From: Solwaraspora sp. WMMD792
GTDB lineage: Bacteria; Actinomycetota; Actinomycetes; Mycobacteriales; Micromonosporaceae
Reading direction: 5' to 3'
Assembly: GCF_029626105.1 (NCBI RefSeq)
Contig: NZ_JARUBH010000009.1
Location: forward strand, 1,860,001-1,924,000
Length of the DNA: 64,000 nt
Positions within the stretch are counted from its first letter, which is position 1; each line of letters begins with the position of its first letter. The notes under the pieces are model-generated. The model searched no databases, was not told where the DNA came from, and saw nothing but the letters and a program-made list of their open reading frames with translations. Made by a program: the position numbers and the translations under genes. Positions 14,410 to 52,946 of the stretch are shown here, piece after piece.

Positions 14410-14462
14410 CTGATAGGGGTCACTAAGGGGTAGGCGGCCCTTCCGCGCTCCGGTTAGCGTTC
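14410..14462 (+). promoter_or_regulatory. Candidate LAL-activated promoter A (TAGGGGT repeats)
   Basis: TAGGGGT (14414-14420) and AAGGGGT (14425-14431), 11 bp apart, precede TAGCGTTC (14455-14462), whose TAGCGT fits a -10 hexamer. The distance from the last box to the -10 is 23 bases. The same layout occurs before the loading-module PKS gene at 52748-52808. It should drive the DUF5988-like gene and the operon leading into the PKS genes. Confidence 0.6.
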
Positions 14463-14533
14463 AATGGCGACGCACCGAATTTCTTTCTCCTTGCCCGCTG
14501 ATCGCGGGAGGACGGCGCGGAGGAGCTTGTGCG

Positions 14534-14758
14534 ATGAGACATTCCGGTGACGATGGCCTCGTCGATGTGGTGTTGGAGGGCGGTCCGGCGGACCTTCCAC
14601 CCGAAAGCCGCCTGGTCAAGGCCGTCAAGAGCGACGAGAAGATCAAGATCGAGCATCACGGCGGGTACGAGCACTTCGAGCGCGTCGACGGCGCGCTGGC
14701 CGGGAATGGTGATTCGATCACCTATCGATGGACCACCCGCACCAGGATCGCCGAATAG
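14534..14758 (+). CDS. Small DUF5988-like protein
   Basis: A 74-residue protein starting at ATG 14534 with GGAGGAG upstream. The layout 'VDVVLEGGPADLP ... KIKIEHHGGYEHFE ... YRWTTRTRIAE' matches the small DUF5988 proteins found in many actinomycete natural product clusters. Function unknown. It is the first gene after promoter A and should be co-expressed with the flavoenzyme and PKS genes. Confidence 0.7.
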   Translation: MRHSGDDGLVDVVLEGGPADLPPESRLVKAVKSDEKIKIEHHGGYEHFERVDGALAGNGDSITYRWTTRTRIAE

Positions 14759-14812
14759 TTCACCGCATTCACGAGCGGACATGGCAGACGATTACGAAAG
14801 GGCGGCACGGCG

Positions 14813-15262
14813 ATGAGTGACAGCAGCACCAATTCCGGCACGGCGGACCTTGAGGTGGCCTGCGCCATTCCCGGTGAGACGCCCCAGGACAGCGTCAACT
14901 ACGTCACGGTCGTCGCGCCGGACAAGGTTGCCGCCGGCGGCGAGATCCACCTTGAGGTCACGCTGCGCAGCCGCGCGGCCACCCCGAGGCTACTGGCCCG
15001 TAACGAGGTGACCGCCGAGCTGGAGGTGATCGTGGGCGGTGCGGGCGAGGGCACGCTGACCGTCACCGGGCTCACCAACCCGGCGGAGATTCCGAAGGGC
15101 GGCACGGTGTTCCTCAGCGGCGGCACGGTCACGCTGCGCGCGGAGCGGCCGGGCAACTACACGTTCACCCCCGGCGACCACACCGTGGTGACCTCCGACC
15201 ACCCCGTGGTCTGCACGGTCACGGGCGGGTCCGCGATCGTGGCCAGGACCGAGGTCGCCTGA
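14813..15262 (+). CDS. Beta-rich hypothetical protein
   Basis: A 149-residue protein with no signal peptide and many alternating Val/Thr strands (APDKVAAGGEIHLEVTLRS and the later VTLRAERPGNYTFTPGDHTV), suggesting an Ig-like beta sandwich resembling DUF6801-type domains. Two Cys residues (in EVACAIPG and VVCTVTG) could form a disulphide. Its stop overlaps the flavoenzyme start (TGATGA), so the two are translationally coupled and may interact. I do not recognise a defined function. Confidence 0.65.
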   Translation: MSDSSTNSGTADLEVACAIPGETPQDSVNYVTVVAPDKVAAGGEIHLEVTLRSRAATPRLLARNEVTAELEVIVGGAGEGTLTVTGLTNPAEIPKGGTVFLSGGTVTLRAERPGNYTFTPGDHTVVTSDHPVVCTVTGGSAIVARTEVA

Positions 15263-50775: not shown

Positions 50776-51470
50776 CCGGCGGCCGCGTCGGCGCTCTTGC
50801 GGAGGGCGCGGTCGCAGGCGGCCAGGTGCGTGCCGAGCGCCTCCTCGAAGGAGTTGGCGGTCGCCTCCAGCAGCAGGCGGCGCCGGATGGCCAACTCGGA
50901 GCCGGCCGCGCCGCCGACCACGCCTCGGGCGACCGTGACGGCTTCGGCCGGGTCGTCGACGATGCCGTCGACCAGGCTGAGCCGCATGACCTCCTCGGCG
51001 GTCAGGTCCGCGCCGAAGAGCGCCATCTGGCGTACCCGGGCGACGCCGATCTGGTTGGCCAGCCGGTGCAGGATCATGCCCGGCCAGACGGCGCCGTGCC
51101 GGGCCGGGATGCGCAGCCGCAGGTCCGGGGTGGCGAGCCGGTAGTCGGTCGAGAGCAGCGCCTCGGCGGCGGGCCCGCCGCAGTTGCCCTGGGCGATCGC
51201 GATGGTCGCCACGGTGAGCCGCTCCAGGCGGCGCAGCGCGCGTTCCCACTTGTTCACCAGGTGCACGCCGGTCGCGCCCGGCCACTGTGGATCCGTGTCG
51301 GCGCCGGTCAGGTGCAGCACGACGATGGATCCGGGCGGTGCCTGCTCGGCACGCTCGCTGAGCGTTTCCACCCGGGCCACCAGCTCCGGGGAGAGCGGTT
51401 CGGCACCGTCGACGCGCAGGTACGGATCGGTGCCGGCGCCGACGGGGGACGCCATGTCACTGCCAGACAA
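50772..51470 (-). CDS. dpgB: DpgB: enoyl-CoA hydratase-like partner of DpgA
   Basis: A crotonase-fold protein of about 232 residues. A TTG at 51470 has GGAAGAGAGG at the right distance; an ATG at 51455 would remove five residues but lacks a ribosome-binding site. It has the family pattern [20 protein letters not shown] and [19 protein letters not shown]. In glycopeptide producers DpgB (with DpgD) speeds the aromatisation of the DpgA tetraketide to 3,5-dihydroxyphenylacetyl-CoA. A DpgD homologue is not in this window. Confidence 0.88.
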
Positions 51471-51506
51471 TGTGCTCTGCCTCTCTTCCGGGGTGCAGCC
51501 GCCGCG

Positions 51507-52625
51507 TCAGAAGCGGACGAGGGCCGTCTCGATGGTCGACCCGGGGCCCATGGTCATCATCACGCCGTGGTCGCCGGGGCGGACCACGTTCTCCTCGAGC
51601 AGCCGTTCGTAGGAGAAGAGGAAGGACCCGCTGGACAGGTTGCCGTAGTCGCGGAGCACGCCGGTGGTGTGGCGCACGTCGTGGCGGGTGAGGCCGAGAT
51701 TGACCATCACCGAGTCGATGACCTTCTTCCCGCCGGAGTGGACCAGCCAGTGCGCGATGTCGCCGCGCCGCAGGCCGGTGTCGGACAGGAGACGGCCGAT
51801 GATCGTTTCCACGTGCGCGCCGACGACGTAGGGAACGTCACGGTCCAGGAAGAAACTGAATTTTCCCTCGTTGGAATCCCAGTCGTAACGCATTGCGTCG
51901 ACTGCCTCGGGAATGATGCAGCTAGAGAATTTGAGGATCTGCGGCCCGCGTTCCTCGCCGCTCTCTCCGGCGAGCAGTGCCACGCCGGCGGAACCGTCAC
52001 CGAAAAGGCTGTTCACCACGGCCGTACGCATCGTGCCGTCGAAGACGTACGCGGACGAGCAGGCCTCCACGCACAGCATCACGGCCAACTGGTCCGGGTG
52101 GGCGGCCGCCCAGCCGGCGACCGCGGTGAGGCTGTTCAGACCCGCGTTGCAGCCCATGCCGACGACGTCCAGCCGGCCGCAGTGCCGCCCGAGCCCGAGT
52201 TCGCGGATCAGCAGCGCGCTGAAGCCCGGCGTCATGAACCCGGTCGAGGTGACGCAGCAGAGGTATCGCACATCGGACAGGTCGGCGTCGGCCCGCTTCA
52301 GGGTCGCCTGTAGGGCGCGTACGCCCATGTCCAGGCCGGTCGCCCGGTGTTTGGCCAGCAGGTCGGCCTGACTCTCCGGCGCGCGCCGGCCGTCCTCCTG
52401 CTCCGGCGGCAGCACCAGGAACCGCCGGTCGATGGCGCTGTTGAGGAACAGGTTGCGGATGCGCGGATCGTCGACCCGCAGGATGTCCAGCAGTTCCCGC
52501 TGCGAGTAGCCGGCGCCGGGAACCGCGGTGCCCACGCCGACGATCCGGGCTGCGGAGCCGGCCATCCGGGTGGCGGCCGCAGAGCGCTCGTCCAGCAGAC
52601 CGGTGCGCTGCATGAGTGTCGTCAT
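51507..52625 (-). CDS. dpgA: DpgA: type III PKS, 3,5-dihydroxyphenylacetyl-CoA synthase
   Basis: A 372-residue chalcone-synthase-fold enzyme. ATG 52625 is preferred over an upstream in-frame start at 52649 because ACGGAG lies just before it. The catalytic triad is visible: Cys159 in VGMGCNAGLNSL, His in LVHSGGKK and Asn in DYGNLSSGS. DpgA condenses four malonyl-CoA units to the 3,5-dihydroxyphenylacetyl skeleton. It is the first gene of the five-gene leftward operon and is divergent from the loading-module PKS gene that would use the final acid, so starter supply and chain start share one control region. Confidence 0.95.
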   Translation of the reverse strand: MTTLMQRTGLLDERSAAATRMAGSAARIVGVGTAVPGAGYSQRELLDILRVDDPRIRNLFLNSAIDRRFLVLPPEQEDGRRAPESQADLLAKHRATGLDMGVRALQATLKRADADLSDVRYLCCVTSTGFMTPGFSALLIRELGLGRHCGRLDVVGMGCNAGLNSLTAVAGWAAAHPDQLAVMLCVEACSSAYVFDGTMRTAVVNSLFGDGSAGVALLAGESGEERGPQILKFSSCIIPEAVDAMRYDWDSNEGKFSFFLDRDVPYVVGAHVETIIGRLLSDTGLRRGDIAHWLVHSGGKKVIDSVMVNLGLTRHDVRHTTGVLRDYGNLSSGSFLFSYERLLEENVVRPGDHGVMMTMGPGSTIETALVRF

Positions 52626-52946
52626 CGTTGCTCCGTCACAGGTCGCCAAGGAACGTCACCATTTCATTGCCCGACGATCGGACAGTACGCAGCCGGTCCC
52701 GAGAACGGCTATCCTCTCGCCCGTGAATAACTGTCCTGAGCGCTCGTTAGGGGTGACTGGTTAGGGGCGGATAGGGGTGTCTCGCGGCGGCGGCGGTCAA
52801 TAGCGTTCGGCGCAGAACGGGGTGTTCCGCGCGCAATTCCGCCGAGCGTGGACGGGTCTGTGACATCCCGGCGACATCGGTGAAACGCACCGGCGACGTA
52901 CGGGCCGGGCGCCCGTCACACCCGCCATGGTCGAGGAGACGGTGAC
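52626..52946. promoter_or_regulatory. Divergent dpgA/PKS control region with TAGGGGT repeats (promoter B)
   Basis: On the plus strand TAGGGGT (52748-52754), TAGGGGC (52762-52768) and TAGGGGT (52772-52778) precede TAGCGTTC (52801-52808); the gap from the last box to the -10-like TAGCGT is 22 bases. This leaves a leader of roughly 130 bases before the PKS ATG. On the minus strand a similar TAGCCGTTC (complement of 52704-52712) lies about 36 bases from the first box and may be the dpgA -10. The same protein could therefore switch both operons. Promoter A at 14410-14462 has the same layout. Confidence 0.6.

Follow-up and report, generated by a model that had tools for sequence, protein, structure and literature searches.

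Tandem TAGGGGT boxes set at a fixed distance from a putative -10 hexamer, a probable operator of LAL activators in a kendomycin-type polyketide cluster and elsewhere in actinobacteria

Results

The window analyzed here is the whole 64 kb stretch of Solwaraspora sp. WMMD792 DNA, and positions count from its first letter. It holds two promoter regions, site 1 and site 2, within a polyketide gene cluster. The genes and features around them are as follows.

10039–12804, plus strand: LAL regulator, 921 aa from the ATG at 10039 (kmy4 size), with an AAA ATPase and a C-terminal LuxR-type (GerE) HTH that contains TVSTVEQHLT
13780–14397, plus strand: TetR-family regulator, 205 aa (kmy6 size), directly upstream of site 1
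14414–14420, plus strand: box 1 of site 1, read as TAGGGGT
14425–14431, plus strand: box 2 of site 1, AAGGGGT, 11 bp period from box 1
14455–14460, plus strand: TAGCGT, putative -10 hexamer of site 1, 30 bases from the start of box 2
14534–14758, plus strand: DUF5988 family protein, 74 aa (kmy7 size), first gene after site 1
14813–15262, plus strand: second gene after site 1, 149 aa (kmy8 size)
15262–16815, plus strand: FAD/berberine-bridge-like oxidase, 517 aa (kmy9 size)
16916–46232, plus strand: remaining collinear run after site 1, with PKSs of 3859, 2143, and 3347 aa and then an FAD monooxygenase (390 aa if its start is at 45060)
51507–52625, minus strand: dpgA-type type III PKS, 372 aa from an internal ATG (kmy18 size), divergent from site 2
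52748–52754, plus strand: box 1 of site 2, read as TAGGGGT
52762–52768, plus strand: box 2 of site 2, TAGGGGC, 14 bp period from box 1
52772–52778, plus strand: box 3 of site 2, TAGGGGT, 10 bp period from box 2
52801–52806, plus strand: TAGCGT, putative -10 hexamer of site 2, 29 bases from the start of box 3
52947–63998, plus strand: loading-module type I PKS after site 2 (kmy19 position), running off the window

By gene order and protein sizes, this cluster appears to be the kendomycin B (kmy) cluster. The sizes of kmy5–11 (274, 205, 74, 149, 517, 3859, and 2143 aa) and of kmy21, kmy27, and kmy28 (261, 174, and 125 aa) are identical to those in the kmy table, and kmy12 has 3347 aa in the window vs 3346 aa in the table. 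The 921 aa of kmy4 were obtained with the start used in the original prediction, and for kmy13–18 (390, 486, 551, 444, 227, and 372 aa) start codons were chosen to give the table sizes. The comparison was one of protein sizes and gene order with the kmy table (GenBank MZ222135), and the sizes cover kmy4–18, kmy21, kmy27, and kmy28; kmy19 runs off the window. The protein encoded at 10039–12804 belongs to the LALs by its domains (Pfam AAA_16, 1.1e-13; GerE, 4.2e-13) and its length of 921 aa, and one LAL was found in its own genome at E ≤ 1e-40.

In the available parts of the kendomycin B study, loss of the LAL gene kmy4 abolishes kendomycin B, and among eight genes tested kmy9, kmy16, kmy18, and kmy19 drop most (PMC8708025). 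Kmy4 is described there as required for full transcription of kmy9, kmy18/kmy16, and kmy19; kmy9 lies behind site 1, and kmy18/kmy16 and kmy19 lie on the two sides of site 2. These genetics support the LAL at 10039–12804 as the candidate regulator, the role in which it had originally been cast. As a separate observation, kmy10, kmy11, and kmy13 share the plus strand run of kmy9, yet they go unnamed among the hardest-hit genes in the same parts of that paper.

Site 1 lies between the TetR stop at 14397 and the DUF5988 start at 14534, and site 2 between the dpgA start at 52625 and the PKS ATG at 52947. TAGCGTTC stands at 14455–14462 in site 1 and at 52801–52808 in site 2, separated from the end of the last box by 23 and 22 bases, respectively. 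These coordinates confirm the original prediction of tandem TAGGGGT-like heptamers ahead of an identical TAGCGTTC at two promoters, together with its box-start to -10 distances of 30 and 29 bases; a spacing of 29–30 bases also recurs far outside the kendomycin-type cluster. The operons assigned to the promoters, namely, the PKS run and the loading-module PKS divergent from dpgA, hold up as well. For the claim that the two or three boxes adjoin the -35 region, the box-to-TAGCGT distance stands, and the -35 placement is conditional on TAGCGT being the -10 hexamer; if it is, the last box, 22–23 bp ahead of TANNNT, is at the -35 position. The sequence between box and putative -10 is dissimilar in the two sites. 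Pair scans on the dpgA side of site 2 found no box pair for that side.

TAGGGGT alone is unremarkable, with 3 occurrences in the window vs 1.48 expected, and TAGCGTT occurs 3 times vs 1.12 expected. In the 7.4 Mb genome, AACGCTAN{17,30}YCCCTW gave two matches, site 1 and site 2 (reversed control, 0), as did TAGGGGN{3,7}WAGGGG (reversed control, 3), and TAGGGGTN{3,30}TAGCGTT gave one, site 2 (reversed control, 1). Both pair-based exact patterns thus had no match in the forward orientation other than sites 1 and 2. Box pairs with at most one mismatch in total and a 9–12 bp period occurred twice in the window and in none of its 300 dinucleotide shuffles. We defined the composite element as a box pair (at most two mismatches in total, 9–13 bp) followed by TANNNT at 28–31 bases. 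A weight matrix for it, trained on 20 composite sites that include sites 1 and 2 and come mostly from sets later scored, gave 34.2 and 31.7 bits at sites 1 and 2 and no more than 8.9 bits in the rest of the window. A relaxed composite scan, covering the window and two 20 kb flanks, located a third, variant copy about 18 kb outside the window. The originally proposed pattern was also run on seven genomes of the genus. Apart from sites 1 and 2, it matched a near-identical place in L003 and L004, where a lone box is separated from TAGCGTT by 23 bases, and another place in L005 (reversed control, 4 in all); these matches were rejected as different from the TAGGGGT-pair element.

The register between boxes and hexamer was kept in other genomes. 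In 23 of 60 non-redundant box pairs from several genera, TANNNT starts 29–31 bases after the 3' box; the 23 include the two pairs of the window itself and four (L218, L220, L226, and L235) of one promoter family. Any other single TANNNT offset from 7 to 79 was found in 0–2 of the 60 pairs, and 2000 shuffles gave a mean of 1.4 and a maximum of 6 for the 29–31 register.

In the 1,359 kb of sequence that surrounds LAL-type clusters, the composite element has 24 sites, vs 0 in 1,822 kb of controls. The window and its flanks contributed 3 of these sites, DHBA-type clusters 7, LAL homologue loci 9, and plasmid-collection LAL loci 5, from locus sets that are partly dependent (L266/L278 and L269/L275 carry nearly identical sites, L153/L165 appear to be one orthologous site, and L087 shares its genome with L168; L036, L038, L039, and L040 were omitted, since their sites also occur in L087, L090, L100, and L111, on contigs of equal length). 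The reversed-consensus composite was absent from all sets, and with TANNNT in other registers each set averaged between 0 and 0.6 sites. Among the DHBA-type loci, the composite test is passed by only 5 of 21; 18 of 20 pass a looser pair test, which the reversed control also passes in 6 of 20. Among the plasmid-collection LAL loci, 5 of 13 pass, only 3 of them independent. No composite site was present in 570 kb from 29 DpgA-type loci without a LAL, meaning none in the 20 kb stretch, so that a LAL may lie farther off. Six DpgA-type loci holding a LAL were likewise free of the composite in 120 kb, and five of their six LALs also carry the TVSTVEQHLT helix. The weight matrix exceeded 20 bits in two of the 29 LAL-less DpgA loci (25.1 and 21.7) and reached 20.8 bits in one of the six with a LAL; other controls stayed at or below 18.2 bits. 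The composite element is not private to the kendomycin-type cluster and recurs near related LAL genes in other actinobacteria.

In 354 genomes, a strict pair pattern without the -10 matched 86 sites vs 51 for the reversed control. Since this pattern alone was too weak, the -10 register and the distance to a LAL were used instead. A LAL lay within about 10 kb of 5 of 40 pattern sites vs 0 of 20 reversed-pattern sites, and because proximity at 10 kb held for only 5 of 40, distances were taken from whole-genome positions. For this count, 48 of the 86 sites were used, drawn from 34 of the 64 genomes with matches; they were hand-picked for large contigs, excluding genomes where a LAL had led to the site. 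On large contigs, a LAL was located within 100 kb of 26 of 38 pattern-found sites; the random expectation, computed with some rounded replicon sizes and a guessed size for G320, had a mean of 1.35 and a maximum of 6 (2000 random sets). Seventeen of the 38 sites form one PKS promoter family by spacer, all with a LAL within 100 kb; counted by spacer class, 8 of 14 have one. No LAL lay within 100 kb of 12 of the 38 sites, and six of the 38 are a conserved glycosyltransferase promoter with no LAL within 200 kb. Ten sites on smaller contigs, outside the 38, comprised four with a LAL within 100 kb (one glycosyltransferase-type, at 93 kb) and six without a LAL on the contig.

Of the 35 LALs extracted, 33 carry the recognition-helix motif T[VA]STVEQH[LM]T. 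The vem-like loci yielded no link to VemR: in L098, L103, and L140, which have the vem-like gene order, the box pair is reversed, on the strand opposite dpgA and pointing back toward the LAL gene, and in L104, whose gene order is the same, no boxes lie near dpgA.

Discussion

Our results make it very likely that the cluster's own LAL, a MalT-type STAND activator, has the TAGGGGT boxes as its operator, and the composite element is probably the landing site by which LAL activators turn on their clusters. A LAL oligomer would place two or three of its HTH domains on successive boxes along one DNA face, the box period being about one helical turn, mostly 10–11 bp. Ending 22–23 bp ahead of the -10 hexamer, the last box would abut or overlap the would-be -35 and bring the activator up to the housekeeping RNA polymerase at sigma region 4. 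We infer direct binding in this oligomer geometry, with transcription starts and a class II activation mechanism to match. One LAL would turn on the PKS/tailoring run through site 1; site 2 would serve it for the loading-module PKS and, probably, for the dpg starter-unit genes on the divergent side, and the same LAL would also turn on the third operon outside the window. Several observations count against this reading: LAL loci that lack composite sites, box pairs far from any LAL, the reversed pairs of the vem-like loci, the modest excess of the strict pair pattern over its reversed control, the dpgA side of site 2 with no pair of its own, kmy10, kmy11, and kmy13 going unnamed among the hardest-hit genes, and the other target sequences reported for RevU.

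Alternatively, the boxes might bind another cluster regulator, such as the TetR beside site 1, a SARP, or a NarL-type response regulator, with LALs merely co-occurring. This would suit the 10 kb count, with a LAL near only 5 of 40 pattern sites, and the 12 of 38 sites without one within 100 kb. SARP operators are likewise heptameric direct repeats with an 11 bp period; they have another consensus and lie about 8 bp ahead of the -10, vs 22–23 bp at sites 1 and 2. Against any such regulator, the 570 kb of DpgA-type loci without a LAL in the stretch gave no composite site, and the exact patterns match only the kendomycin-type cluster in the window's own genome. For the TetR, the available parts of the kendomycin B study report that loss of kmy6 left kendomycin B unchanged, whereas loss of kmy4 cuts these genes (PMC8708025). 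We consider another regulator unlikely.

Chance or shared ancestry, with a duplicated promoter fragment at the two sites and base-composition effects behind the wider matches, could draw on TAGGGGT alone not being rare, but the sequences between box and -10 differ between sites 1 and 2, the pair was found in 0 of 300 shuffles, and the register is kept across 60 pairs from several genera, making this account highly improbable. We give least credence of all to TAGGGGT and TAGCGT being the two parts of an alternative sigma factor promoter, which the fixed spacing would fit, but 22–23 bp is too long a spacer for sigma-70-family promoters, the boxes are tandem in two or three copies with periods of 9–14 bp, and the second motif is an ordinary TANNNT.

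With a LAL as the activator bound at the boxes, the same operator would serve many actinobacterial LAL-controlled clusters, since these LALs have a nearly invariant recognition helix. That tandem TAGGGGT boxes with a TANNNT -10 at 29–30 bases form one code for all actinobacterial LALs with TVSTVEQHLT is a broader proposal, whose chances we judge to be even. Type I polyketide clusters commonly have a LAL as their pathway-specific activator, and LALs are also employed to awaken silent clusters. A rule with a built-in -10 register would lead to target promoters, operon heads, and cluster edges and to reporter design. If one code holds, it could allow the regulons of many silent polyketide clusters to be read from their DNA, and a LAL could cross-activate clusters other than its own.

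LAL recognition sequences are mostly open in the literature covered. For the three regulators of the geldanamycin cluster, which include two LALs, a review states in its available parts that the recognition sequences "have to be elucidated" (PMC6784220), and the accessible text on RevU defers its exact binding sequence to a future study (PMC7311520). Among the literature matches listed, mostly judged by title or abstract opening, we noticed none pairing a TAGGGGT motif with LALs; a CTAGGGG match in a PimR paper was a primer and was rejected.

Several known systems share traits with the element described here. MilO is a LuxR-family activator with three imperfect direct repeats, like the tandem boxes, but its repeats are TGTC-N3-CGGT and lie 142 bp upstream of the start, as given in part of the paper (PMC11784345). 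RevU, the LuxR-family activator of the reveromycin cluster, has Walker motifs and a C-terminal HTH, as LALs do, and is reported in the available sections to bind putative lux-box sequences at revB, revK, and revU; TAGGGGT is absent from the RevU-bound fragment as printed there (PMC7311520). Kmy4, by gene order and sizes apparently the regulator of the same cluster, is a LAL activating the kendomycin B genes, and the parts of its paper covered give production and transcript levels, with no operator or binding site (PMC8708025). ACSP50_3915 of Actinoplanes, also from the Micromonosporaceae, is a MalT-like activator of the LuxR family that controls a large region, and its motif overlaps the -35 of 17 starts; its operator is the inverted repeat TCATCC-N5-GGATGA, not TAGGGGT direct repeats, and the same source, in its available parts, does not describe the region as a polyketide cluster (PMC7567727). 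There the enterobacterial MalT core is given as GGA(T/G)GA within GGGGA(T/G)GAGG (PMC7567727, in part), a core absent from sites 1 and 2, where it is TAGGGGT with a 10–11 bp period. The MalT box is likewise the operator of a LAL activator and consists of direct repeats at the -35 (PMC7567727, same parts), and the direct-repeat arrangement is found here with periods of 11 bp at site 1, 14 and 10 bp at site 2, and 9–13 bp elsewhere.

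Box Promoters of the Window

TAGGGGT-box promoters occur at two places in the window, and a third copy lies in its flank (L170):

Site 1, 14414-14462: TAGGGGTcactAAGGGGT - 23 bases - TAGCGTTC
Site 2, 52748-52808: TAGGGGTgactggtTAGGGGCggaTAGGGGT - 22 bases - TAGCGTTC
Third copy, L170:17693-17708 (window-equivalent about 81708), minus strand: AAGGGGTGCTAGGGGT, 9 bp period, TAGCCT at 29

The original prediction of two promoters with a fixed box-to-TAGCGT distance was borne out, the last box starting 30 (site 1) and 29 (site 2) bases before TAGCGT. Site 1 is intergenic and oriented toward the DUF5988 gene at 14534-14758, the first behind it, which heads a collinear run to the PKS genes. 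Site 2, also intergenic, is oriented toward the loading-module PKS start at 52947 and divergent from the type III PKS gene dpgA (start 52625). A single TAGGGGT heptamer has an ordinary frequency in the window; the arrangement of boxes is the unusual part. No box pair arose in 300 dinucleotide shuffles of the window, and two exact patterns matched the 7.4 Mb genome at sites 1 and 2 only (reversed controls, 0 and 3). We defined a composite site as a box pair with TANNNT, a putative -10, 28-31 bases from the 3′ box start. Because the 64-kb window holds no further composite site, autoregulation of its large ATP-binding LuxR (LAL) gene through this element is not indicated. A relaxed search covered the window and its two 20-kb flanks. 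Behind the third copy, at a distance of 91 bases, comes a gene for 125 aa, the size of kmy28 (DoxX) in the kendomycin B (kmy) cluster. Next are a gene for 174 aa and a longer ORF whose position corresponds to that of the PQQ enzyme in the kmy table.

By Pfam and protein sizes, the cluster was identified as a type I/type III PKS cluster of the 3,5-dihydroxybenzoate (DHBA)-starter type. Proteins of 274, 205, 74, 149, 517, 3859, and 2143 aa and, further on, 261, 174, and 125 aa equal the kmy table as found, and one differs by a single residue (3347 aa here, 3346 in kmy). The kmy sizes 390, 486, 551, 444, 227, and 372 aa were reached with start codons chosen to fit, and the 921 aa of the LAL follows the start codon of the original prediction; the match is one of protein sizes and gene order. 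In the available portion of the kendomycin report, kendomycin B was lost when the LAL gene kmy4 was inactivated and came back on complementation, and inactivation of kmy6 (AcrR-family) had no effect (PMC8708025). Among eight genes with measured transcripts (kmy9, 10, 11, 13, 16, 18, 19, and 23), those named there as hardest hit without Kmy4 were kmy9, kmy16, kmy18, and kmy19 (PMC8708025). kmy9 comes third in the gene run that follows site 1, and site 2 is flanked by kmy18 and kmy16 on the dpg side and kmy19 on the PKS side. As far as that portion goes, the genetics support the LAL at 10039-12804, the activator candidate of the original prediction, acting at both promoters, at the genetic level rather than that of contact.

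Box Pairs in Related Clusters

A DpgA search of 354 genomes of the family gave matches in 60, and sequence of up to 20 kb was retrieved at 40 of the matching places. Five of the 40 encode the starter-pathway thiamine-pyrophosphate decarboxylase; four of these had a LAL inside the stretch, the fifth had one ~16 kb off, and all five had YAGGGGT-type or one-mismatch pairs near dpgA. Scanning named genomes with a decarboxylase alignment gave 57 loci, 19 with dpgA, which together with L045 formed 20 DHBA-type loci. At least one pair (≤2 mismatches, 9-13 bp period) was found in 18 of the 20, versus 6 for the reversed consensus. At ≤1 mismatch, 15 sites (reversed, 2) fell in 398 kb of DHBA-type loci and one in 570 kb of DpgA loci whose stretch contained no LAL; none was found in 732 kb of decarboxylase-only loci, 400 kb around control sites, or 120 kb of six LAL-holding DpgA loci. 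In 15 of the 20 loci a pair lay <700 bases from the dpgA match. Thirteen of these pairs have the window's arrangement, opposite in strand to dpgA, and two share the strand of dpgA (L090, L091). Three of the 13 loci (L098, L103, and L140) have a gene order that has been reported for vem, with the LAL gene immediately upstream of dpgA and co-oriented with it; between the two genes they have a common TAGGGGG pair, opposite to dpgA and aimed back at the LAL gene.

Outside the DHBA pathway, LAL homologues from other genomes (37-42% identity) plus three more gave 15 loci, with box pairs in 13 at ≤2 mismatches (reversed, 4) and 8 at ≤1 (reversed, 1). A plasmid collection held 24 records with a LAL, and of the 13 regions taken (12 Streptomyces, 1 Nonomuraea), five had composite sites, three of them independent:

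L266: upstream of a phosphopantetheinyl transferase, then a DUF5988 gene
L268: upstream of an aminotransferase
L269, L275: upstream of FAD monooxygenases
L278: no annotation

Genes for small DUF5988 proteins are found repeatedly next to LAL genes, in clusters that are otherwise unrelated (L045, L085, L153, L160, L165, L166, L266); they may have a role together with the LAL. Separately, L003 and L004, of the same genus as the window, share TAGGGGT-N16-TAGCGTT at one place with one base different; having one box only and a distance that does not fit, it was rejected as a composite element.

A pattern-alone scan of the 354 genomes gave 86 matches, versus 51 for the reversed control. LAL distances were taken in 34 genomes with pattern sites, counting 38 sites on large contigs. 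A LAL lay <100 kb from 26 of the 38 (1.35 expected, maximum 6 of 2000), or 8 of 14 when counted by spacer class. Seventeen sites form, by spacer, one three-box promoter family beside PKS genes (TAGGGGC, TAGGGGC, TAGGGGT + TTACCTT; L218, L220, L222, L225, L227, L230, L235, L243, and others). This promoter is kept in many genomes, with a PKS gene beside it where inspected (L218, L222) and LAL genes, often two in tandem, 84-88 kb away for 16 sites and 7.5 kb for one. Six further sites represent a glycosyltransferase promoter that is conserved and, on large contigs, has no LAL <200 kb away: a TAGGGGT-TAGGGGT pair stands beside a glycosyltransferase-like gene in L217, L221, and L233, and L234 and L240 were assigned by sequence likeness only. 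Those pairs of this type that were kept in the register set below lack TANNNT at 28-31; another regulator using a similar sequence may be served here.

Register and Proposed Mechanism

The register set comprised 60 non-redundant pairs (period 9-12 bp, ≤1 mismatch over the whole pair). TANNNT started at offset 29 in 8, 30 in 14, and 31 in 1; between offsets 7 and 79, no remaining position had more than 2. These 23 pairs, which include the window's own two and four of one PKS promoter family, compare with a mean of 1.4 and a maximum of 6 in 2000 downstream-sequence shuffles; the other 37 lack TANNNT at 29-31. LAL-type cluster DNA (1,359 kb) contained 24 composite sites (≤2 mismatches, 9-13 bp, TANNNT at 28-31), and the controls (1,822 kb), of which 120 kb do include a LAL, contained none. 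The reversed consensus gave none in any set, and other registers averaged 0 to 0.6 per set. Only 5 of 21 DHBA-type loci passed the composite test.

Among 35 LAL extracts >600 aa (three shorter ones were dropped), the recognition helix T[VA]STVEQH[LM]T occurred in 33 and exact TVSTVEQHLT in 31; the 13 plasmid-collection LALs carry close versions. One near-invariant helix and one operator fit together, but this helix also occurs in 5 of the 6 LALs from the LAL-holding DpgA loci, which are without composite sites. Taking TANNNT as the -10, the last box would lie at about -41 to -35 and the preceding box one turn upstream. The inferred geometry is that of class II activation: the activator would contact sigma region 4, and a STAND oligomer would set its HTH domains one after another along a single DNA face.

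None of the matches listed from open-licence full text, mostly judged by title or abstract start, tied TAGGGGT repeats to LALs; a report may exist elsewhere. RevU is said, in the accessible part of its report, to bind lux-box-like sequences (PMC7311520), which, on that part, argues against one code shared by every regulator of this kind. As described in the part of the source available, MalT has a layout in common with the window element but a different core, GGGGA(T/G)GAGG at -35, and Actinoplanes MalT uses the palindrome TCATCC-N5-GGATGA, unlike the TAGGGGT direct repeats (PMC7567727).
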